Shown one piece after another: positions 427 to 17,064 of a stretch of DNA of 52,747 nucleotides (the stretch's first letter is position 1; every line of letters begins with the position of its first letter). The notes beneath the pieces are model-generated. The model saw only the letters and a program-made list of their open reading frames with translations, had not been told where the DNA came from and searched no databases. The translations under genes were made by a program, and so were the position numbers. Source of the DNA: Thermoplasmata archaeon (GTDB lineage Archaea > Thermoplasmatota > Thermoplasmata > Methanomassiliicoccales > Methanomethylophilaceae); the NCBI GenBank assembly GCA_015063235.1, contig SUSW01000050.1:1-52747 (forward strand). The letters are read 5' to 3'.

Positions 427-1065
427 TCAGTTGCCAGTGAGCTGGTCGACGAGTCCGATGATTTCGTTTGCAGTCTCAGAGTATCCGTCCGCTCCGATCT
501 CGTCGCACCACTCCTTAGAGCAGGGTGCTCCACCGAAGATCGCCTTGTAGGGGGCTTCCATCTCTTTGATTGTCTCAACGAGTTCTCTCTGTGACTCGAG
601 GGTGGTGGTCATGAGTGCAGATCCACCGCAGACCTGAGCGTTGTTCTCCTCAGCTGCATCCATAAAGTCCATTGCTGATGCGTCGGGTCCGAGGTCGATG
701 ACGTTGTAACCTGCTCCCCTGAGCATTGCACAGCAGACGTTCTTTCCAATCTCGTGGATGTCTCCCTCGACTGTTCCCATGACAACAGTTCCCTTGAGGT
801 TTCCCTCTCCGGATTCCATCAGGGGCTTGAGGATGTTGAGTGCTGCTTCCATTGTCTTGGATGCTGCAACGACCTGGGGTAGGTAGATCTCAGCCTTGTC
901 AAACCTTACTCCGATGGTCTCCATTCCCTTACCGAGTCCCTCACCAATGATGACTCCGATTTCCATCTTGGCGTCGATTGCGGCCTGGGTTGCTTCCTGT
1001 GCGAGCTTGATGTTCCAAGTCTCTACTGCTGTCTTAAGATCAGCGAGAATCTGTTCGTTTGCCAT
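427..1065 (-). CDS. mtmC: Monomethylamine corrinoid protein MtmC
   Basis: Cobalamin-binding protein of 212 residues that accepts the methyl group from MtmB and passes it to the MtbA-type coenzyme M methyltransferase. It has the usual two-part layout: a helical cap in residues 1-90, then a Rossmann-type B12 domain with the cobalt-ligand motif D102-x-H104-x-x-G107 (EGDIHEIGKN) and later GGSALMTTT and GGAPCSKEW. The start ATG at 1063-1065 has a strong AGGAGG 7-8 bases upstream. It is first in a leftward operon with mtmB and divergent from mtbC, so both operons share the control region 1066-1790. The assignment to MtmC rather than MtbC or MttC rests on the mtmB neighbour. Confidence 0.93.
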   Translation of the reverse strand: MANEQILADLKTAVETWNIKLAQEATQAAIDAKMEIGVIIGEGLGKGMETIGVRFDKAEIYLPQVVAASKTMEAALNILKPLMESGEGNLKGTVVMGTVEGDIHEIGKNVCCAMLRGAGYNVIDLGPDASAMDFMDAAEENNAQVCGGSALMTTTLESQRELVETIKEMEAPYKAIFGGAPCSKEWCDEIGADGYSETANEIIGLVDQLTGN

Positions 1066-2446: not shown

Positions 2447-3853
2447 ATGACAGAATACTACACCAGGATGGGTGATGGTAAGAGGGTTACCATGACCAAG
2501 CAGCAGATCATGGACGATCTGCAGGCCGGAACAGCAGACGCAGCCGACATGGCATCCGTCCCTTCACTGGACGCAAACGAGCTCGAGCACCTTGCCGAGA
2601 TCATCATGTGTCAGGACAGGGTCGTCGGAGTAACGCCCGGAAACGAGGTCGTCCTCTCCTACGATATCGGTCAGCTGGACTTCACCGGTGACAATGGAAA
2701 CTCCGGAAACGGAGTCGACATGGGAAGGCTCGAAGCAGCATTGCTGCATGAAAGGGCACTGGGAGCCGACACATTCGAACTGGCCCACTCAGACTATTCC
2801 ATCAAGCCCGTCAAGCCCGTCATCGCGATGGAGATGCAGACGATGGAGGAGGTCCAGGCGGAGATCGTCGCACCCTTCTTCTACGGAGCGATGCCCAACC
2901 AGGGACTCTACTACGCCCCTGACGGACCTTACGGAAACCCGGCAGACCTCATGAGGGAGTTCAAGATCGAAGAGTCCATGCAGCAGTCCGAACTCGCTTC
3001 CGCTCACGTTACCAGGGATATCGAGTACGTCGCAACAAGGCTCCAGGCAGCAGGTTCCGATGGATTCAACTTCGATACTACCGGATCCGCAGGAGATGCC
3101 GACTGCGTAGGAACACTCAACGGAGTCAAGCTCCTGAGGGAGCAGTGCCCCGAGGCATACATCCAGGTAGGATTCGCAGGCGAGTCTATCATGGGAATCC
3201 ACGGAATGATCGAGTTCGATGGACAGGTCGTCGCAGGAATGTACCCTCACCAGTACGTCCACATCGCAGAGAAGGCAGGAGCCAACGTCTGCGGTACAGT
3301 CGTCAACACCAACACCAGCAAGTCCCTGGCATTCAACATGGCAAGGGCAGTGACATTCATCAAGGAAGCCGTCAAGACCTCTAACATCCCCATCCACGCA
3401 GACATGGGAATGGGAGTAGGCGGAATCCCCATGTGCGAGACACCTCCGATCGATGCAGTCTCCAGATGCAGCAAGGCAATGGTCGAGGTCGCAGGCGTCG
3501 ACGGAATATAGGTCGGAGTCGGAGACCCCGCCGGAATGGACCTCCCTCACTTCATGGCTTCAGGAATGGGAGGAATCAGATCCGCAGGAGACCTCGTCGC
3601 AAGGATGGAGTTCGCCAAGAACATGAGGGCGAAGGATGCAAAGGCATACGTCGCAAAGAAGCTCGGAATCGATGTTCTTGACATCGTCGACGAGTACGTT
3701 ATGAGGGACCTCCGTGAGGAGCTCGGAATCGGAGTCGTGACCGGAGTTCCCGGAGCACCCCGTGGAATCGCGGCCAAGATGAACATCGAGAATCTCCTCG
3801 ACATCAAGATCAACAGCTGTGAGAAGTTCCGCGAGAAGACACAGAAACGCTGA
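2447..3853 (+). CDS. mtbB: Dimethylamine methyltransferase MtbB, pyrrolysine protein (TAG at 3509-3511)
   Basis: Transfers a methyl group from dimethylamine to MtbC. Read through the TAG at 3509-3511 the product is 468 residues with pyrrolysine at 355, which is the family's normal length. Sequence on both sides of the amber codon belongs to MtbB: EVAGVDGI before it, [14 protein letters not shown] after it. If the TAG were a stop, the catalytic barrel would lose its last quarter, and the downstream segment would have no start or ribosome site of its own. Ends in TGA. It lies 23 bases after mtbC and 107 bases before mttB, with a strong hairpin in that gap. Confidence 0.95.
3509..3511 (+). other. 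In-frame UAG read as pyrrolysine in mtbB
   Basis: TAG at residue 355 of an otherwise open 468-residue frame, at the conserved pyrrolysine position of MtbB. Decoding requires the pyl genes, which are not in this window. Confidence 0.93.
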
Positions 3854-3960: not shown

Positions 3961-5451
3961 ATGAAAGCAATCCAGTACCCTGGAAAAATCGGAATGAACG
4001 GTATCAAGATGAACCTGTTCACAGAGGACGACTGCAGAGCCATTGATCTCGCAACAAGGGATGTCCTCTGGAACTACGGTGTCCAGGTATCAGACGACGA
4101 ATGCATCAAGATCTTCGAGGACGCAGGATGTATCGTCGACTACGAGACAAAGATGGTAAGGATCCCCGACTTCCTCATGAACAAGGCCCTTGCATCCGCA
4201 CCCAAGACATTCTACCTCTACGGAAGGGATGATGAGCACACAGTCGAGCAGGCATGGAACGGACGTGTCCACTACACTTGCTTCGGAACCGGTATCCAGG
4301 TATGTAACTACCTCGGAGACGGAAAGTACGAGACTCGTGACTCCAACTCAGCAGACCTCGCACAGATTGCAAAGCTCTGCGACTGGGCAGACGGAATCAG
4401 CTACTTCTCACTCCCCGTTTCCGCAAGAGACTGGGCAGGAAAGGGAGCTGAGGATGTCCACGAGATGTACATTTCAATCGCCAACACCGTCAAGCACTTC
4501 CACCACATCGACCCCGTCGCCGAGCACGTCAAGTACTATTGGGAGATGCTCGTCGCATACTACGGCGGAGACGCCAAGAAGGCACGCGACAGGCCTCTTA
4601 TGTCCATGCTCGTCTGCCCCACATCACCCCTCGAGCTGTCACACAACGCAGCACAGGTCATCAAGCAGGGAGCAGAGTACGGAATCCCCGTCAACGTCCT
4701 GTCCATGGCAATGGCCGGAGGATCATCCTCAGTCCACCTTGCAGGAACACTCGTCACCCACAACGCAGAGATTCTTTCCGGAATCATTCTCGCACAGATC
4801 GTGAAGCCCGGAGCACCCGTCTACTACGGATCTTCTACCACAATCTTCGACCTCAAGCACGGAACAGCACCCGTCGGAGCACCCGAGCTTGCACTCATTT
4901 CCGCAGCTGTCGGAGAGCTCGGAAGGTACTACGGACTCCCCGTCTTCACAGCCGGTATGTAGACCGACGCCAAAGTCCCCGACTCCCAGGCCGCACACGA
5001 GAAGACTATCACATCTCTTCTTCCCGCAATGGCCGGAGTCAACATGATCTACGGATCTGGTATGCTCGAGCTCGGACAGACATTCTCCCTTGAGCAGCTC
5101 GTCATCGACAATGACATCATCGCGATGGAGAGGAAGGCCCTCGAGGGTATCGTCGTCAACGACGAGACACTCGCCGTCCCCGTCATCAAGGAGCTCGGAG
5201 TAGGAAGGGACTTCATCGGACACCCCACCACCATGGCAAACATCGAGCTCGCATCCGACCCCACAGTGTTCAACAGGGACATGATCGGAGACTGGAGAGC
5301 ACAGGGATCCAAGGCATGTGTTGATGTCGCTCACGAGATCGTCGTAGATGTACTCAAGAACCACGTGGTCGCACCTATCGACCCCGAGATCGCCAAGAAG
5401 ATGGAAGCAATCGTCAAGAAGGCTGATGACGACTTCCTCAACAAGGCATGA
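3961..5451 (+). CDS. mttB: Trimethylamine methyltransferase MttB, pyrrolysine protein (TAG at 4960-4962)
   Basis: Transfers a methyl group from trimethylamine to MttC. Starting at ATG 3961, seven to eight bases after AAGGAGG, and reading TAG 4960-4962 as pyrrolysine 334, the product is 496 residues, as expected for MttB. An in-frame start further upstream at 3862 would add a segment unlike the family. Family blocks include [18 protein letters not shown] near the N-terminus, [19 protein letters not shown] before the amber codon and [18 protein letters not shown] after it. The continuous homology across the TAG supports readthrough. The stop is TGA and mttC follows after 34 bases. Confidence 0.95.
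4960..4962 (+). other. In-frame UAG read as pyrrolysine in mttB
   Basis: TAG at residue 334, flanked by FTAGM and TDAKVPDSQ. This is the conserved position in the pyrrolysine-containing MttB subgroup; many non-methanogen MttB homologues (MtgB type) lack it. Confidence 0.93.
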
Positions 5452-5485: not shown

Positions 5486-6133
5486 ATGACATTAGCAGAG
5501 GATGCAAAGAACGCAATTATGAAGTACGACAACAAAGCCGCCGTCGAGGTTGCCAAGAAGGCAGTCGCAGAGGGCGCAGACCTTGTCGACCTCATCGAGA
5601 ACGGATACTCGGCCGGAATGACAGAGGTCGGAGCTCTCTTCGAAGCAAAGAAGCTCTACCTCCCCCACGTCATGGCAGCTGCAGCGACAATGAACGCTGC
5701 AATGGAGATCCTCGAGCCCGAGATCGCAAAGAAGGGAGACGGAGTCGGAACCGGACTCGGAACAGTCGTCATATGTTCCATCGAGGGAGATATCCACTCC
5801 ATCGGAAAGGACATCGTCGCCATCATGCTCAAGGTAGCCGGATTCAATGTCAAGAACATCGGAAGGGATGTGCCTCTCGACACGATCATCCAGGCAATCA
5901 AGGACAACAAGGCTGTCGCAGTCGGAACATCCGCCCTCATGACCTCAACAATGGTCGGCCAGAAGACTTTCGAAGAGAAGATGGTCAAGGAAGGCCTCAA
6001 GGGCGGCTGTATCACCAACGTCGGTGGAGCACCCGTCACCCAGCAGTGGGCAGACGAGATCGGAGCGGATCTCTACACAGAGAATGCTTCCGATGCTGCC
6101 GCAAAGTTCTCTGCAGCTTTTGAGAAGAAATGA
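5486..6133 (+). CDS. mttC: Trimethylamine corrinoid protein MttC
   Basis: Corrinoid protein of 215 residues that receives methyl groups from MttB. Helical cap with FEAKKLYLPHVM, then the B12 domain with D102-x-H104-x-x-G107 (EGDIHSIGKD), GTSALMTSTM and GGAPVTQQWADEIGAD. A clear AGGAGG lies before the ATG at 5486. It ends 21 bases before a perfect hairpin (6155-6174), after which the permease gene begins in the same direction. The order mtbC-mtbB-mttB-mttC places each corrinoid gene next to its own methyltransferase. Confidence 0.93.
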   Translation: MTLAEDAKNAIMKYDNKAAVEVAKKAVAEGADLVDLIENGYSAGMTEVGALFEAKKLYLPHVMAAAATMNAAMEILEPEIAKKGDGVGTGLGTVVICSIEGDIHSIGKDIVAIMLKVAGFNVKNIGRDVPLDTIIQAIKDNKAVAVGTSALMTSTMVGQKTFEEKMVKEGLKGGCITNVGGAPVTQQWADEIGADLYTENASDAAAKFSAAFEKK

Positions 6134-8601: not shown

Positions 8602-10542
8602 TCATATTATCTTCGCATTCGCTGTACGCACCAGGTTGATCTCTTCATAGGTCTCTATGCGCAGATCGTCCAAGGTGTAATATCTCGCATGGAGCGCATC
8701 GGCGAACTCCTTTGAATGGTGGACCGTATCGTATCTCTTCTCAGTATCGATGACGATCCATTTCACCGTCGGGAGATTGATCTTTCCGGCGATCTCCAGC
8801 GCCTCTTTGAGAGGGTCGGTCTTCTCGTCGTTCGGATCCAGGGGAACGTTCGCTTCCCCGTCCGTGACAAGGACCACATAGCAGTCGTCGTTGGGACGCT
8901 TCTTCACATACATGGACATGTAGTCGTTGATGTACTGCAGAGCACCCGACAGAGGTGTCCTTCTTCCGATGGCAAGATCGTCTAGCAGCTTGTAGATGAC
9001 CTCCACTTCTCTTGAGGGCTGCAGGAGCATCGTGATCGCCTTCTCGTTGAACGTGAGGAATCCCACACGGTCCTTCTTGACGTAGTGCTCCTTCAGAAGA
9101 GACAGGATCGCTCCTTTGACGGCGACCATTCTGTTGCGGATGATCAGCGAGCCGCTGGTGTCCACTGCGAATAGGAACGTCGATGAGCTTCTGGTCTCTC
9201 TGATCTTCTCCCTCATATCCGACTTCTCGATGATGACCGCCATGTCGGTGTCCTTCTCCTGATGGCGTTTGATCTGATATGGTGCGCTCGCACGTACTGT
9301 AGCATCGAAAGCGAGATCCGGATTCTTCTCTTCTGTCATCCTCGACCCGATGTATCTTCCCGCTCTGTCGCCGGATTTCTGCTGGAATCTCTTGCCTCTT
9401 GCAGAGGACTGTCCGCGTCTGCCGGCCTCGGTGTCCTCGAACAGGTCGATGGTCTTGAATGTCTCGCCAATCTTGGTGATGACGTCTTCTGCCTCCTTGG
9501 ATCCGAGCCTCGATTCATCCTTGTTATCAGAGGGCCCGGTCTCCGCGTCGAGGACCGCATCCGTCGGGGCCACATCGTCTTTCTTTATTGACTCGTGTGG
9601 GAGCTTCGTGATGGCTGGGGATTCGGTGTTGAAACCCACGGTCGAGCGGGCTAGTTTCTGTTGCTTGTCAACCCTTCTTCCCCTCACTGTTTTGACTCTG
9701 TGATTGAGGCAAAGCACCGATGCTTCTACTATATCGTCCTCGTTAACATCGGTACGTCCGTCCATGGCCGCAAGTGTGATCGCTACGTTCGTTGCAGTGA
9801 GGTCTCCGCGATGTCCGTCGATACCCATCTTATTGCATACTTCGGCTATCGTCCTTCTCAGGTTCTCATCAGGCATGTGCTCCTCGACGATACTGGATGC
9901 ATTCACTATCCTGTCGTGGATCTCCTGATCCTGTTCCCTGTACTTTTCGACGAACGCATCGGGATCAGCATCGTATTCGAGGCCGCGCAGGAGTATCTCC
10001 GTCCTGCCCGTCTCGTCGCTTTCGGAATCTATGTTGACGCATATGTCAAAGTGATCCAATATCGACGGGCTGAGGTATGCATCGCTGTTGTTCATCGTTG
10101 CGATGAGTACTGTATCCACATCATACGATGTAGACATGTTCTCCCTCTCGATTCTCACTTTCCTCGACAGTACAGCATCAATGACGCCTGTGATTATCCT
10201 GTGCTCGAAAAGGTTGATGTCATCCATGTAAAGGATGTTGCCGTCGGCCCTGTTCAGAAGACCTTCCTGCAAGCATATCCTGCCTTCCTTGACCGCTGTC
10301 TCGATATCGAGGCATCCGAATAATTGTTCATCCGTGACGTTCAGCGGGACGTTGACTATAGTCTTCCCGGTTATGTGGCCCAACGAGCGGGCCACGAGCG
10401 TCTTTCCAGTTCCTGAAGGCCCTCTTATGAGGACGGCCTTGATCCCGGGATTGGCCATCGCGCACATCAATGCCTTTTTGGCCTGATGCATTCCATAGAT
10501 AGCGGAGAACGGATAGTATGTGGGGTTCACATTCCCAGACAT
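8602..10542 (-). CDS. ChlD/BchD-like chelatase subunit: AAA ATPase plus VWA domain
   Basis: 646 residues. The N-terminal AAA domain has Walker A GPSGTGKT (about 40-47) and a Walker B-like ILYMDDINLF. A charged linker of roughly 100 residues rich in Glu, Arg and Ser follows, then a von Willebrand A domain with the MIDAS motif DTSGS (about 450). This is the layout of the D subunit of magnesium/cobalt chelatase. With the I-like subunit it forms an ATP-driven complex that helps a large H or CobN subunit insert a metal into a tetrapyrrole. No such large subunit is in the window, so the metal is not determined; cobalt or nickel insertion would suit a methanogen. Its start overlaps the preceding gene by 16 bases. 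Confidence 0.82.
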   Translation of the reverse strand: MSGNVNPTYYPFSAIYGMHQAKKALMCAMANPGIKAVLIRGPSGTGKTLVARSLGHITGKTIVNVPLNVTDEQLFGCLDIETAVKEGRICLQEGLLNRADGNILYMDDINLFEHRIITGVIDAVLSRKVRIERENMSTSYDVDTVLIATMNNSDAYLSPSILDHFDICVNIDSESDETGRTEILLRGLEYDADPDAFVEKYREQDQEIHDRIVNASSIVEEHMPDENLRRTIAEVCNKMGIDGHRGDLTATNVAITLAAMDGRTDVNEDDIVEASVLCLNHRVKTVRGRRVDKQQKLARSTVGFNTESPAITKLPHESIKKDDVAPTDAVLDAETGPSDNKDESRLGSKEAEDVITKIGETFKTIDLFEDTEAGRRGQSSARGKRFQQKSGDRAGRYIGSRMTEEKNPDLAFDATVRASAPYQIKRHQEKDTDMAVIIEKSDMREKIRETRSSSTFLFAVDTSGSLIIRNRMVAVKGAILSLLKEHYVKKDRVGFLTFNEKAITMLLQPSREVEVIYKLLDDLAIGRRTPLSGALQYINDYMSMYVKKRPNDDCYVVLVTDGEANVPLDPNDEKTDPLKEALEIAGKINLPTVKWIVIDTEKRYDTVHHSKEFADALHARYYTLDDLRIETYEEINLVRTANAKII

Positions 10543-11555
10543 AGGTCGAGCTCCTTCTCATCGAAGGTGACGTTGTCGAATGCACGCTTTTTGAGACGGT
10601 GGGCGAGGACCAGCGGTGCAATGGTACGGAGATCCTCCTTGGTGACCTCCTTCCTACCCTCCAGAGCGGCGTTGGCCTTCGCAGCCCTCATCATGGTGAT
10701 GTCTGCCCTATGACCTTCCATGTTGAAATGGATAGATGTCATGACAATGTCATGGACGATCTTCTTGTCCATGACCACCTCGGGTAGGAGCTCCCTTGCA
10801 GCGACGATCTTGCTACGCATAGCTTCTATGTCAGATCCGCAGTCCTCCAGATATTTTTCCGGGTTCCTGTCGAATTCCATCCTGCGCTCGATGACCTCCA
10901 TTCTCACGTTGACATCCTTCTCTCCCTCGATGTCCACGCACAGTCCGAACCTGTCCAGGAGCTGGGGCCTGAGGCTTCCCTCTTCGGGGTTCATGCTTCC
11001 TACGAGGATGAACTTAGCGGGGTGTGAGAAGGACACGCCTTCCCTCTCGATGTAGTTGACGCCCATCGCCGCGGAGTCCAGAAGCAGGTCGATAATGTGG
11101 TCGTCCAAGAGGTTGACCTCATCGACGTAAAGAACATTGCCGTTGGCCTGTGCAAGAACACCAGGTTCGAACTTCTTCTCTCCGGTCTTGAGAACATGTT
11201 CCAGGTCCAGGGTTCCGGAGACACGATCCTCCGTGGCGCTGAGCGGGAGCTCGATGACGGACATTGGCATCATCTTCGATTCCAACTGGATCCCGGCGTT
11301 GACCTTCTCCTGACACTGCATGCACATCCTCTTGGGATACCTCGGGTCGCAGTGGAACGGGCATCCTACCACGGTCGGTCTCTCAGGAAGTATCTGTGCG
11401 AGGGATCTAACTGAGGTGGATTTCGCCGTACCTTTCTCTCCTTTGATGAGGACGCCTCCGATACCGGGGTCGATGATGTTGAGCAGCAAAGCCTTCTTCA
11501 TTTTCTCCTGTCCAACAACACGAACAAAGGGGAATAGCAATGTGTTTGTGGTCAT
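10527..11555 (-). CDS. ChlI/BchI-like chelatase ATPase subunit
   Basis: 342 residues from ATG 11553-11555; a longer frame to 11594 is possible, but MTTNTLLFPFVRVVGQEKMK is the natural family start. Walker A GEKGTAKST, Walker B VLYVDEVNLLDDHI, sensor region GSMNPEEGSLRPQLLDRFG and the arginine-rich C-terminus are typical of the chelatase I subunit. Residues around CPFHCDPRYPKRMCMQC form a cysteine cluster, seen in many such proteins. It is the first gene of a two-gene leftward operon and divergent from the small gene at 11644 across an AT-rich promoter region. Partner of the ChlD-like protein. Confidence 0.83.
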   Translation of the reverse strand: MTTNTLLFPFVRVVGQEKMKKALLLNIIDPGIGGVLIKGEKGTAKSTSVRSLAQILPERPTVVGCPFHCDPRYPKRMCMQCQEKVNAGIQLESKMMPMSVIELPLSATEDRVSGTLDLEHVLKTGEKKFEPGVLAQANGNVLYVDEVNLLDDHIIDLLLDSAAMGVNYIEREGVSFSHPAKFILVGSMNPEEGSLRPQLLDRFGLCVDIEGEKDVNVRMEVIERRMEFDRNPEKYLEDCGSDIEAMRSKIVAARELLPEVVMDKKIVHDIVMTSIHFNMEGHRADITMMRAAKANAALEGRKEVTKEDLRTIAPLVLAHRLKKRAFDNVTFDEKELDLCLGM

Positions 11556-11643
11556 AATAATCAGCCTGAAATTACCATTCTCTTTAAAAAACATTCTATA
11601 TTATTAAGATAAAATTAAATAATATTATCAAGTAAATTGTATC
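11556..11643. promoter_or_regulatory. AT-rich divergent promoter region
   Basis: The 88 bases between the chelatase and Pyl-candidate genes include ATATTATT (11598-11605) and AATAATAT (11618-11625), an inverted pair that could be back-to-back TATA boxes. Both are close enough to their start codons for short-leader or leaderless transcripts. Confidence 0.45.
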
Positions 11644-12075
11644 ATGGCAAATGGTCCTGGAAATAACGAATCCATATCTGATTCGGACATCAGACGTCTT
11701 TTCGAGTAGAGGGTCGATATCGACGGAAGGAACCCCCAATCCCCCGAGGAGATGAAGAAGAATCGTGCATGCGTTGCAGAGATCGATAGCATACTCGAGA
11801 ACCACAAGGATTCGGTCCAGGCCATTAAGGACAGCATCGTTGACAGACAGGAATTGATCGAATACTTCAGTCTGAATTCCGATGATCCGGATGTTCTGGA
11901 AAAGGGATTGGGTGCGATGTGGCAGCGCGTGGGCATGCTCCAGAATGCAGCCATTTCTGCAGGACAGTCCGGAAATACGAAGGATAAGTTCGAGTATGAG
12001 GTCGAGATTTCCGTCCTAAGAGAGCTCAGGTTCGAGACTCTCGACAGGCTGTCCGCGCTGAAAAGTAGCGGGTGA
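11644..12075 (+). CDS. Candidate new pyrrolysine protein, 143 residues (in-frame TAG at 11707-11709)
   Basis: ATG at 11644 opens a frame that runs 21 codons (MANGPGNNESISDSDIRRLFE), meets TAG, and continues open for 121 codons to TGA at 12075. The 14 codons between the TAG and the next ATG (11752) are coding-like, with G or C in most third positions. The ATG at 11752 has its only GAGGAG touching the start codon, a poor position. The downstream part is acidic, helical and coiled-coil-like (residues 37-143: MKKNRACVAEIDSILENH, later EVEISVLRELRFETLDRL). No homologue was recognised. Alternatives: a 21-residue peptide plus a 107-residue protein from 11752, or a broken gene. The next gene overlaps its stop, suggesting an operon. 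Confidence 0.55.
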
Positions 12076-12566
12076 AGGGAGTGGCACAGGACATTGGGAA
12101 GCTATTATTCTCATTCACGATCGACAAGGATCTCGGAAGGAAAGAGTTCCTCCGTATGGGTCGTGCAATCAGATATAGCAATTCGAGGAAGATTATGATG
12201 GTGGCGTTGGTCTCCATATTCGCAGTCTTCTTCCTGTCCGCTGTCGTTTCTGCTTTCTTTCTTCTCCTCTTTATCATAGTTGCAGTCGAGATAGCCTTGT
12301 ACATGGAGTTCTCTATCAGAGGGATTGCCGACAATCTTCAGAAGAAGGTTCCGATATGCTATGACTTCTATGAGGACGGCCTCATAGAGACGATGGAAGG
12401 GAAATCTGAGCTGCTTCTTTACGGAAGGTTCAAGGCGGTCAAGATGTCCAAGCATCTTTTCACTCTAGTCGGCAGGAAGACGGAGATCGTCGTCGTTCCC
12501 CGTTCGCTTATCGGAGAGGATGCGGACAGGCTGCTCATGAAGCTTCAGAGGATCATTGGAGGATAA
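12072..12566 (+). CDS. Membrane protein with YcxB-like C-terminal domain
   Basis: 164 residues from GTG 12072; GTG 12081 is another possible start. Two adjacent membrane spans (about residues 41-76) form a hairpin, followed by a cytoplasmic domain: YDFYEDGLIETMEGKSELL, YGRFKAVKMSKHLFTLV, VVVPRSLIGEDADRLLMKL. This beta-strand pattern resembles the YcxB-like domain of small bacterial and archaeal membrane proteins of unknown role. The start overlaps the previous stop and the MarR-like gene follows within 16 bases, so 11644-13182 is probably one operon. Confidence 0.65.
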   Translation: MKGVAQDIGKLLFSFTIDKDLGRKEFLRMGRAIRYSNSRKIMMVALVSIFAVFFLSAVVSAFFLLLFIIVAVEIALYMEFSIRGIADNLQKKVPICYDFYEDGLIETMEGKSELLLYGRFKAVKMSKHLFTLVGRKTEIVVVPRSLIGEDADRLLMKLQRIIGG

Positions 12567-12582
12567 TCAGAGGTGTGATGAG

Positions 12583-13182
12583 ATGAATGCGCAGAGTGAG
12601 TATGATGAGCTTTGGGGTGTGTTTCTGCCGTTGCTGTTCGACAAGATATCGCGTAATATCCGCATCGACATGTCCAAGGAATTGGAGGAGTACGGTCTGT
12701 CAAGTATGCATGCCCCTTATCTGATGGCCCTTAACATCAAGAACGGACAGACGCTAATGTCGCTGTCGCACTTCCTCGACATGGACCGTTCTAATTCCTG
12801 CCGCGTCATTCGTGAGTTGGAGGACAAGGGTATGGTGTACGATCTGCGCAGATCTCCCACCAGCAAGAACTATCCTCTTTTCCTGACGCATCGTGGTGAG
12901 CTGATATCGAACAAGCTGATGGATGTTATGTACTCTTTGGTATCGAGGTATTTCGAGGGGATCAGTGAAGACGAGTACAAAAAGATGAAGAATACGCTCA
13001 TCCGTTTGTTCGAAAACATCAGTACCGAAGGCTATAGCAGCCCGACATGGAGGATGGACCCGTATTATGAGTATATGATAGAGTCACAGAACACCCGCCT
13101 CACAGGAAAGAGGTCCATAATGGAAGGCAACAAAGACCATTCATATATTGAAAGTTTCAATTCTAATGATATTAATTTATAA
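12583..13182 (+). CDS. MarR-family transcriptional regulator
   Basis: 199 residues from ATG 12583 (AGAGGTG upstream); a TTG at 12556 would extend it into the preceding gene. It shows the MarR winged-helix pattern: a dimerisation helix (FLPLLFDKISRNIRIDMSKEL), then LMSLSHFLDMDRSNSCRVIRELEDKGMVYDLRRS, where the recognition helix is DRSNSCRVIRELEDKG, then the wing and LTHRGELISNKLMD. It may control the neighbouring operon, including the orphan mtmB and permease downstream, but no operator was identified. About 50 residues of extra C-terminal tail are not typical of the family. Confidence 0.8.
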   Translation: MNAQSEYDELWGVFLPLLFDKISRNIRIDMSKELEEYGLSSMHAPYLMALNIKNGQTLMSLSHFLDMDRSNSCRVIRELEDKGMVYDLRRSPTSKNYPLFLTHRGELISNKLMDVMYSLVSRYFEGISEDEYKKMKNTLIRLFENISTEGYSSPTWRMDPYYEYMIESQNTRLTGKRSIMEGNKDHSYIESFNSNDINL

Positions 13183-13656: not shown

Positions 13657-15039
13657 ATGGCTGCAAAACGTTATGTTGATGTATTCGAGATGTACAACCG
13701 TTGCGTTGTAGGCGACCGCATCTCTGAAGAGGATTGGGATTACAACATCATTCCACATAACGCTGCACTAATGAAGCAGCGCTATGACATCTCATTCGGT
13801 AACAGGATCATCCCCAACGACCAAGATATGGTTGACCGTCTTTTTGTTGCAGGAGTGGATATGCTCCTTACTTCCGGCATTTACAACAAGGCTACCGGCA
13901 CCAGGATGCTCATTACGGAGGATGAGCTTTACGAGGGACTCAAGATGGCTCCGAGAAAGCTTCAGCTGGGATCAGGAAAGGATTCCATCGTATGTTCTCA
14001 GCGCAGAGGGAATTCAATTAATAAACCGATCATCGAAGGCGGCCCCACAGGTGCTCCACTCACAGAGGATTTATACATCCCTATCATAGAATCGTATGCC
14101 CAGGAGCCTGCTGTTGATACGATAGTCAGCGGAGTGCTGAGGACTGTGAAAGGTTCGGCAGCGGAGAAGAATACACCGTGGGAGATCAGGGGCGCGCTGG
14201 CAGAGCTCAGCTATACCCGCGAGGCCCTTTACAACGCAGGAAGGCCCGGTATGGCGATATAGGGCCCTCAGACCCCGCTCACAGCACAGGGACGCATCGT
14301 AGCGGATCTCGGAGGACAATCCGGTTTGAACAATTTCGATCTTCACGAGTGCTCTCAGATGAATGAGCTTAAGATAGACACGTCCGCTTTGAATATGATT
14401 GCCGCATGGCACCTTTCCGGAGTGAACATACTCGTGGAACAGATGCCGATCATCGGAGGATATGCAGGGAGCGTGGAAGAGACGGCCATATGCGACATCG
14501 CCACGACCTTGGCCTCTTTCGCGGTAATGAATGCCGATATCCATCTCGGCGGCCCTATACATATTAGATGGGGTACGACCACCAACAGGCAGTCGCTGCA
14601 GGTCGCTTCGCATACGGCGATGGCCATGGATACGAATACGGATGTTCTGCTTGCCAATCAATATTACACGATGGCCGATTCCTGTACGGAGATGAATATA
14701 CTCGAAATCTCGGCGCAGGCTATGTGCGATACCGTTACCGGCAGGGAACTCCTGTCGGGAGTCGCTTCATCTAAAGGCGTCAAGACAAACATGGTATCCG
14801 GAATGGAGGCTAGGGCCTTGGGTGATGCATCGATGGCCACATGCGGTATGGATCCTGCAGAGGTGAATGATATCGTCAACCGTATTCTGAGAAGGTACGA
14901 GAACGATTATGCCAACCCGCCCAAGGGCAAGACCTTCAGCCAGTGCTATGATGTCAACTCTATTGAACCTACCCAGGAATATCTGGATCTGTACAGTTCG
15001 GCGTCTGAGATATTGGCTGAATGCGGCCTTTATTACTAA
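13657..15039 (+). CDS. mtmB: Second, divergent monomethylamine methyltransferase MtmB (TAG at 14260-14262)
   Basis: Read through TAG 14260-14262 this encodes 460 residues with pyrrolysine at 202, the position known for Methanosarcina MtmB. Family blocks lie on both sides: NAGRPGMAI before the amber codon; GPQTPLTAQGRI, EQMPIIGGYAG, IRWGTTTNRQSLQ, SCTEMNILEISAQAM and LLSGVASSKGV after it. The stop is TAA. It has no adjacent mtmC, so it must use a corrinoid protein made elsewhere, perhaps MtmC at 427-1065. It is clearly divergent from the first MtmB (for example YNKATGTRMLITEDEL where the other has YCQDLGRVMKFTEEEI). It lies between a small membrane gene and the APC permease. Confidence 0.93.
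14260..14262 (+). other. In-frame UAG read as pyrrolysine in the second mtmB
   Basis: TAG at residue 202 between GRPGMAI and GPQTPLTAQ, the catalytic pyrrolysine site of MtmB. Confidence 0.93.
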
Positions 15040-15273: not shown

Positions 15274-17064
15274 ATGGTAAAGCATGGAGTCAGGATCCTT
15301 GCTGAGGGAAACAGTCACGCATTCGTTGGTTTCTCCTCAGACACGGGTCTTGTAAAATCCATCGATTGGAAGCAGGGTATGATTATCGCAATGGGTGTTC
15401 CTATTCTGATTCTTCCTGGAATCTATGATATCGCAGGAACGGCTTGGGGTCTCAGTATTTTCATCTGGACAATCTCCGTTCTGCAGGGTTTCGCACAGAA
15501 TCTGGCGATCGGAGAGATGGCGGCTGCATTAGAAATGCCGGGTATCGGAGGCTGTGCACAGAAAGTATTCACAAAGCCTAATGGAGGCAGATACGGGTTT
15601 GGTAAATTTATCGGAGCATTCACAGCGTGGTCCTATTGGTTCACCTGGACCCCTGTCATCCCCATTTTCACTTGTACTTCGGTTGATTACATCTCTAAGT
15701 TTTTGGAGTATGGTATGGGTATGGATCCGTTGGACAGCACTATGACCCTTTGTCTGCAGCTGATGTTCGGTATTGTTGTTTTCAGCGCTATCGTGTTTGT
15801 CGGTTCCAAAGGACTGTCCGGAGGGGCCAAATTGGGTCTTATACTGGCATTGGTGGCCATTCTGCCTTTGCTGGTGGTTATTGCTATGCCCCTTCTCGGA
15901 CTTACGGTCGGAGGCGGTGAACTTACGGGATTCTCCATTGACAGGATCATGGAGAATCTGGTACCGGACGGTTGGGGTTGGACGGCATCCGACTTCATGA
16001 TGGTATTCGGTATGTTCGCATATGCCCAATGGTGTGCTTGTGCATGGGAATCCGCAGCCACCTATGGAGCGGAGTATAAGACTCCTGGTAAGGATGTCCC
16101 TAAGGCTCTGATATCCGCAGGTTTGGTTTGTCTTGGTATGTACTTCATCGTGCCTTTCGTGGTGTACGGAATGATGGATCCTGCGATGATAGACGCATGG
16201 GGCGTTTCAACGCTGTACCCCATTGCTCAGTACGACTTCGGGGACATAGGCCTGATAATCGCGCTCATTCTGCTGGTGGCAGGAATGGTCATGCTCATCC
16301 AGACAGCATTCTTGGGGTCATCCAGGACACTTTACTTCATGGGACACGAGGGCAACATGCCCAAGATGTTCACCTATACCAATAAGAACGGAGCGCCCCT
16401 GGTCGCTATGTTCTTCCAGTTCGCAATGGGCATCCTTTTCATCATCATCATTCACTTCGGATCCGTAGGAATGATCCTGGCAGCATCTTCCTTTGGATTC
16501 TCGTTTGCCCTTGGAATGGGTATGCTGGCATATATCGTTTCCAAGAAGAATCCCAGGTTTAAGGATCTTCCCAGACCTTATAAGGCTCCCCGTGGATGGT
16601 ATTACGTCGCTTGCTTCCTGATGATCTATCAGTTCTTCGTATTGATCCCTTGTTTGGCGTATTGGTGTATCAACGGGGGAATTGAGAACGGTACCTTCTC
16701 TGTCATTATTGGTGCCGTCATACTGCTGATTTACGTTCCTGTATGGTTCATACTGCAGTACTCCAACGGTAAGGCGGAGGAGAGCTGTTTCGTTTGCAAG
16801 AGATCGGTGGATGATTACAATGCATACGTTACCAAGCAGAAGAATCTGGATTTTGCGGAGACCGAAGACATAATGAGCGAGATGGATTCGTTGCCAGTGA
16901 TTCTTGTGGGTAACACCTACATCTCTCTGTGCCCGATATGCTACGAACTGACCTTCGGATTCTCTACGGATCCGGACGAGAGGTTATCGGGTATCAAGAA
17001 GTATATGGGCGGAGAGATCAACTATCACTTCGACAAGAAGTTCGATGACAGCGGAACTTCCTGA
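15274..17064 (+). CDS. APC-family permease with a Cys-rich cytoplasmic tail, MtmP-like
   Basis: 596 residues from ATG 15274 (GGGAGG upstream; an in-frame start at 15226 lacks one). About twelve membrane helices with amino acid/polyamine/organocation features: IYDIAGTAWGLSI early in the protein, then FAYAQWCACAWESAATYGAEYKTPGKDVPKAL in two blocks, FLGSSRTLYFMGHEGNMPKM and PRFKDLPRPYKAP. Methanosarcina mtmP, the proposed monomethylamine permease next to mtmCB, belongs to this family, and here the gene follows an mtmB, so monomethylamine is the likely substrate. Unusually, about 90 extra residues follow the last helix, with C505-F-V-C508 and C553-P-I-C556, a likely zinc- or metal-binding domain. 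A hairpin terminator follows. Confidence 0.85.
   Translation: MVKHGVRILAEGNSHAFVGFSSDTGLVKSIDWKQGMIIAMGVPILILPGIYDIAGTAWGLSIFIWTISVLQGFAQNLAIGEMAAALEMPGIGGCAQKVFTKPNGGRYGFGKFIGAFTAWSYWFTWTPVIPIFTCTSVDYISKFLEYGMGMDPLDSTMTLCLQLMFGIVVFSAIVFVGSKGLSGGAKLGLILALVAILPLLVVIAMPLLGLTVGGGELTGFSIDRIMENLVPDGWGWTASDFMMVFGMFAYAQWCACAWESAATYGAEYKTPGKDVPKALISAGLVCLGMYFIVPFVVYGMMDPAMIDAWGVSTLYPIAQYDFGDIGLIIALILLVAGMVMLIQTAFLGSSRTLYFMGHEGNMPKMFTYTNKNGAPLVAMFFQFAMGILFIIIIHFGSVGMILAASSFGFSFALGMGMLAYIVSKKNPRFKDLPRPYKAPRGWYYVACFLMIYQFFVLIPCLAYWCINGGIENGTFSVIIGAVILLIYVPVWFILQYSNGKAEESCFVCKRSVDDYNAYVTKQKNLDFAETEDIMSEMDSLPVILVGNTYISLCPICYELTFGFSTDPDERLSGIKKYMGGEINYHFDKKFDDSGTS

Follow-up and report, generated by a model that had tools for sequence, protein, structure and literature searches.

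A short helical protein from a gut or rumen methane-making archaeon suggests a role for pyrrolysine outside the known methylamine enzymes

The gene designated S lies at positions 11644..12075 on the forward strand of the window, by which we mean the whole 52,747-nucleotide stretch of DNA analyzed here. S encodes a short protein of 143 residues when its in-frame TAG is read as pyrrolysine (Pyl). The frame begins at ATG 11644, ends at TGA 12073-12075 and, as the original prediction described, is open except for the TAG at codon 22 (11707..11709, forward strand). A TGC codon on the same strand (11770..11772) encodes Cys43, and a TATA-like element (11614..11621, forward strand), recognized as a consensus match only, lies 30 nt 5' of the ATG.

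Two genes follow S on the forward strand, one encoding a YcxB/PH-like membrane protein (12072..12566; start at GTG 12072, or at GTG 12081 by comparison with homologues) and the other a MarR-like regulator (12556..13182; start at ATG 12583 or TTG 12556). S had been described as the head of an operon with these two genes. Both neighbors are as described, with weak profile matches (PF14317, E=0.012; MarR_2, PF12802, E=0.0001) below curated cut-offs, as were all profile scores obtained for the regulator. The setting is nevertheless not merely that operon but a wider methylamine island. Divergent from S, on the reverse strand, are genes for a ChlI-like AAA+ subunit (10527..11558; TIGR02030, 416 bits, and TIGR02442, 486 bits, both below curated cut-offs) and a ChlD-like subunit (8602..10542; TIGR02442, 481 bits, and TIGR02031, 345 bits, both likewise below). 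The forward strand further encodes the dimethylamine methyltransferase MtbB (2447..3853, Pyl355; TIGR02368 over the cut-off), the trimethylamine methyltransferase MttB (3961..5451, Pyl334; TIGR02369 over the cut-off), an MttC-like corrinoid protein named from its position beside mttB (5486..6133), and an MtmB-like monomethylamine methyltransferase (13657..15039, Pyl202) assigned by sequence resemblance, with no NCBIfam match. A permease of the island (15274..17064, forward strand) is closest to the trimethylamine N-oxide permease model, at a score far below the cut-off, and an MtmC-like corrinoid protein is encoded on the reverse strand (427..1065; TIGR02370, 187 bits, below the cut-off).

The start of S was examined by comparison of six homologues, the window's own included. 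The TAG and the segment that precedes it were kept in all six, with an ATG 20-22 codons 5' of the TAG. The codons past the TAG are also coding, as had been proposed, with residues 22-51 invariant at 14 of 30 positions in the six homologues, a density equal to that of any block. An internal start at ATG 11752 was rejected because it is not conserved among the homologues, where such a start is not the rule: the column holds Met in 2 of 6, and in the near-identical S genes of two genomes (G018 and G030) the first in-frame ATG, GTG or TTG past the TAG is codon 52, beyond the Cys. The ribosome site of ATG 11752 is badly placed, as had been noted, since GAGGAG directly abuts the ATG. Every S gene (6/6) has a TATA-like element, by consensus match only, 28-30 nt before the upstream ATG. 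The position of this element fits a leaderless transcript that may begin at or near the upstream ATG rather than past the TAG. RNA folding around and past the TAG was unremarkable (z -1.71).

The window's genome (G000; 1.78 Mb in 54 contigs, 87% complete) encodes tRNA-Pyl(CUA) (pylT), pylS, pylB, pylC and pylD. TAG usage was assessed in 423,293 bases of this genome, in ORFs of at least 80 codons called by a codon-usage score. The 374 called ORFs terminated in TGA (322), TAA (39) or TAG (13). Ten of the 13 TAG-ended ORFs continued as coding sequence, six of them methylamine methyltransferase-like (two identified by profile and four by resemblance) and four others; of the remainder, one was ambiguous and two resembled true stops, so that at most 3 of 374 ORFs have a genuine TAG stop. 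The same census bore out the earlier statement that no complete gene of the window ends in TAG, since its three TAG-ended ORFs of at least 80 codons were the MtbB, MttB and MtmB-like genes read to their own Pyl codons. TAG thus appears to be mainly a sense codon in this genome, and an in-frame TAG would not be remarkable by itself. Archaea that read all TAG codons as Pyl were reportedly described in 2025.

Homologues of S were sought more widely. Among 150 relatives, a protein search detected the S gene in the six genomes, and a profile search of 147 genomes of the order returned the same six together with a longer paralogue, whose own profile matched in 30 of the 147 genomes. The resulting alignment held 39 members, consisting of six of the short form, S, 13 of the closest long form, A, and 16 and four of the more distant forms B and C. 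The C members came from matches to the C-terminal half only, for which eight loci were fetched and four had a usable frame. The family is patchily distributed: of the genus's 31 genomes, 14 have S or A, and several of those without either are incomplete. G007 carries both, each with Pyl (L065, L066). PylS scored over its cut-off in 13 of these 14 genomes, and in the other (G003) the contig ends within the match. S and A are separated by a long branch of the tree (1.9). No match was found in phage records at E 0.01.

The five other S proteins, which share 42-48% identity with the window protein, all had TAG at a common column. The homologous column in A, found in 13 genomes of the genus, was TAG in 11 and Glu in two; no B or C member had TAG at this column. 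In all 17 S and A members that bear it, the TAG is codon 21-23. When the G030 near-copies were dropped, leaving 15 distinct TAG-bearing members, the only invariant codons across 127 shared columns were the start ATG and the TAG, and the invariant residues were M, L, O, C, I, D, L, A and E. The TAG has conserved coding sequence before and after it and stands in a genome with a pyl cassette; by these sequence comparisons, codon 22 of S is in all likelihood read as Pyl.

Control genes were drawn from the same genome. Its four non-methyltransferase TAG genes with coding sequence beyond the TAG are L109 (G000:C39:26923-28857), L102 (17194-18600), L103 (near 1564-2829) and L106 (10447-13086), and homologues of three of them were sought throughout the genus (31 genomes). 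For the first control, TAG was present in 1 of 29 orthologues (at least 62% identity, among the matches listed); at least two distant paralogues (~34% identity) held a TAG, its position not placed. For the second, TAG was present in one of the five genomes with a match. For the third, TAG occurred in 4 of 31 places listed, in four genomes, and on alignment these fell in different columns, none shared. These comparisons suggest that the TAGs of the three control genes are private, and that the TAG of S and A is the exception in what was tested. It is not sporadic, as in a Thg1-like case of neutral Pyl, but kept in 17 of the 19 S and A members, and very likely it has been kept by selection. A further in-frame TAG was observed in a C-family protein of G030 (L083), at codon 21, where three relatives have Gln. 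This is probably a young Pyl codon and neutral.

A second residue was found to vary together with the Pyl. All 17 Pyl-bearing members (15 distinct) have a Cys 14, 17 or 21 residues past the Pyl. In both Glu-bearing A proteins the Cys column is Arg, and in B and C it is Glu, Asp, Gln, Lys or Arg. In a tree built without the Pyl and Cys columns, the Glu/Arg protein of the window's own genome (A_G000) was sister to a Pyl/Cys protein (A_G024) with support of 100/99, and the other Glu/Arg protein (A_G012) was sister to A_G003, also Pyl/Cys, with support of 89/94 (not starred). Since each Glu/Arg member is sister to a Pyl/Cys member, the double change of Pyl to Glu with Cys to Arg most likely happened twice, independently. 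The 11 Pyl-type A proteins share 56 invariant columns; of these, two are changed in A_G012 (the Pyl and the Cys) and three in A_G000 (the Pyl, the Cys and one Glu-to-Asp change). If losses are assumed to be proportional to branch length, the probability that both Cys losses fall on those two end branches is about 0.0005 on the S and A tree and 0.0026 on A only. We consider a functional coupling of Pyl and Cys likely from this pattern, with the caveats that the two Pyl losses are the only ones, both within A, and that Cys-to-Arg and TAG-to-GAG are both single-base changes. The window's own genome retains a Pyl-less A gene next to that for RamA, the reductive activase of corrinoid proteins, so A can do without Pyl. 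In the A_G012 gene (L040, G012:C72) a TAA comes early, some 26 codons short of the usual end, through truncation, decay or a sequencing error; this gene may be decaying.

The structure of the window protein was predicted with AlphaFold2, run with three relatives and with Pyl modeled as Lys. The model of S (mean pLDDT 88.5, pTM 0.78) has helices at residues 13-27, 34-65, 68-75, 82-108 and 112-142. The helical product anticipated from the sequence is also what the model predicts, as an all-helical protein. The Pfam scan of S gave no methyltransferase match, as anticipated, its sole match being DUF4845 at E 0.22; at 143 residues and with an all-helical model, S does not appear to belong to the methylamine methyltransferase families. 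The first two helices form an antiparallel hairpin with a six-residue turn; helix 13-27 carries Pyl22 and helix 34-65 carries Cys43. In the model the two residues plausibly lie on facing sides of this hairpin. This was reckoned from the helix ends: residue ~39 would lie opposite residue 22, and residue 43 one turn on, on the same face. The spacings of 14, 17 and 21 residues would differ by steps near whole helical turns, placing the Cys on roughly the same face in each case. The fold search gave no significant match, and a sequence search of the PDB with both profiles gave none below E 0.05. Of seven long paralogues, three matched Pfam FlaC_arch with E values of 0.01 or less (best 0.0011). One FlaC_arch score was recorded, 16.9, the gathering score being 27.8.

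The neighbors of S and A were also compared. S lies between the divergent ChlI-ChlD-like genes and the PH/YcxB-like gene in 6 of 6 loci, and MttB, MttC and permeases are encoded in the same stretch in five; the sixth locus (G022) lies on a contig of 7 kb. A is tail to tail with RamA in eight genomes; the two genes are separated by about 1.5 kb in G012 and by no more than about 100 bases in the remaining seven. The RamA of the window's genome scored over the cut-off of TIGR04270. In five genomes A is beside ChlI-ChlD (G001, G017, G026, G029 and, by coordinates, G025). A ChlI with at least 79% identity to that of the window was present in 11 genomes, with S or A adjoining in all 11. At nine further ChlI loci, from seven genomes of other genera and from two of this genus (G019 and G024), no diverged S or A homologue was found by tblastn at E 1e-4.

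The explanation that we favor, and hold to be fairly likely as a whole, is that S serves methylamine metabolism as a small, all-helical accessory protein, that its TAG is read as Pyl, and that its Pyl-Cys pair is under selection. A covalent latch that responds to amines is a bold and unproven version of this explanation, which we put forward tentatively. In this version, the thiol of Cys43 would add reversibly to the electrophilic imine carbon of Pyl22 and latch the hairpin, and the latch would open when methylamine or ammonia competed for the imine. S would then report amine supply to, or recruit, the ChlI/ChlD-like AAA+ pair or RamA. Pyl as an amine sensor that controls RamA or a ChlI/ChlD-like motor is likewise a speculative proposal. 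The Glu/Arg paralogues would have a salt bridge in place of the latch. Sulfite, a sulfur nucleophile, adds to the Pyl imine carbon in crystals of MtmB and MttB, according to the available portion of a structural report (PMC9842639), from which we infer that addition of a Cys thiol across the hairpin would be chemically reasonable.

It is also conceivable, though unlikely, that the early TAG is kept as a supply checkpoint, in which reading past it reports the supply of Pyl-tRNA and readthrough of S couples ribosomes onto the PH and MarR genes, as in an attenuator. The arrangement of the genes would suit such a mechanism, since the PH gene is within ~25 nt 3' of S in 6 of 6 loci, the S stop and PH start of the window overlap or are 5 nt apart, and all 17 bearers have the TAG at codon 21, 22 or 23. 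However, A retains its TAG even as a lone gene facing RamA tail to tail, the covarying Cys calls for a reason at the protein level, and RNA folding near the TAG is unremarkable (z -1.71).

The Pyl of S might instead be neutral, a tolerated sense TAG placed by drift, as has reportedly happened in tRNA-His guanylyltransferase. TAG is nearly absent as a stop in this genome and private TAGs occur in other genes, including the C-family gene of G030 whose orthologues have Gln. Those private TAGs are absent from relatives, whereas the TAG of S and A is the sole invariant codon besides the ATG in the 15 distinct members, and a change of the Cys is coupled to each loss of Pyl; we regard neutrality as quite improbable. 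Still less likely, by analogy with the methyl-transfer sensor Ada, is a catalytic or sacrificial pair in which Pyl would bind methylamine and the Cys would take the methyl group. The same Pyl-Cys pairing and the methylamine setting would accommodate it, but no family or fold match indicates a cofactor or active site. That the TAG is an ordinary stop closing a short leader, with the true protein made from ATG 11752, as the abutting GAGGAG and a mechanical standard-code ORF list would have it, is the least credible reading and can be set aside, since that start is not conserved, two near-identical homologues have codon 52 as their first start, the conserved block of residues 22-51 is partly 5' of 11752, and the upstream ATG and TATA-like element are kept.

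The probably selected Pyl-Cys pair in S may be compared with known uses of Pyl. MtmB, MtbB and MttB resemble S in having a single TAG, at a conserved position, that is read as Pyl, in belonging to the same gene clusters and in depending on the same pyl cassette. Those of the window are 460-496 residues long, whereas S has 143 residues, is helical and has a conserved Cys partner. MtmB and MttB are TIM barrels, and as of 2023 the solved structures of Pyl proteins were those of MtmB and then MttB, both methylamine methyltransferases, as stated in the accessible part of that report (PMC9842639). Pyl or amber codons also occur outside the methyltransferases in tRNA-His guanylyltransferase and transposases of Methanosarcina, as in S. 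The Pyl of the former is reportedly held to be neutral in Methanosarcina, and we know of no partner residue for either. For Methanosarcina transposases, a conserved amber codon is mentioned in the available excerpt of one paper (PMC2933860).

Other predicted Pyl proteins of the Methanomassiliicoccales are like S in being non-methyltransferases of the same order with an in-frame TAG. Excerpts of the genome reports give 16 predicted Pyl proteins for Ca. M. alvus, half of them with TAG-less homologues (PMC4153887), and 46 amber genes for ISO4-H5 (PMC5011839); the rumen isolate ISO4-G1 has 25 Pyl proteins, methyltransferases included and mostly unnamed (PMC4824259). In these sources, as far as they were available, such proteins are listed genome by genome, whereas the TAG of S and A is common to divergent species and two paralogues and has a covarying residue. 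S had been proposed as an unrecognized Pyl protein outside the methyltransferases. The second part holds, but its novelty is only partly sure because an ISO4-G1 orthologue may be among the 25 already counted (PMC4824259). Within the portions of the literature covered, predicted non-methyltransferase Pyl proteins are on record in this order and no follow-up was found (PMC4153887, PMC5011839, PMC4824259). The texts, titles and starts of abstracts covered described no family with a conserved Pyl outside methyltransferases or transposases, and no Pyl-Cys pairing.

These comparisons suggest that, in a gut or rumen methane-making archaeon, Pyl has a job in S outside the known methylamine enzymes. 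A small protein family that retains Pyl in different species and paralogues, and loses a Cys when Pyl is lost, would mean a second function for the 22nd amino acid, and an amine-sensing latch, if true, would to our knowledge be the first selected use of Pyl outside methyltransferase catalysis. Other uses of Pyl would become directly testable in an isolated organism, ISO4-G1.

RamA and the ChlI/ChlD-like chelatase ATPases are encoded beside S and A and are candidate partners by neighborhood only; neither S nor A had a family match to them. A link of S and A to RamA or the AAA+ pair would be one of guilt by association, from neighboring genes. A literature search joining chelatases with pyrrolysine found no paper. 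The ChlI/ChlD-like pair may be a remodeling ATPase of corrinoid proteins rather than a chelatase. In a genome of another genus (G058, L147), a ChlI/ChlD-like pair was observed near RamA, PylB and PylS. At L090, L091, L094 and L092 the Pyl-less B genes show a conserved gene order: they come after a gene for a short protein whose tail is rich in Lys, and some of the loci have Sel1-like genes upstream.
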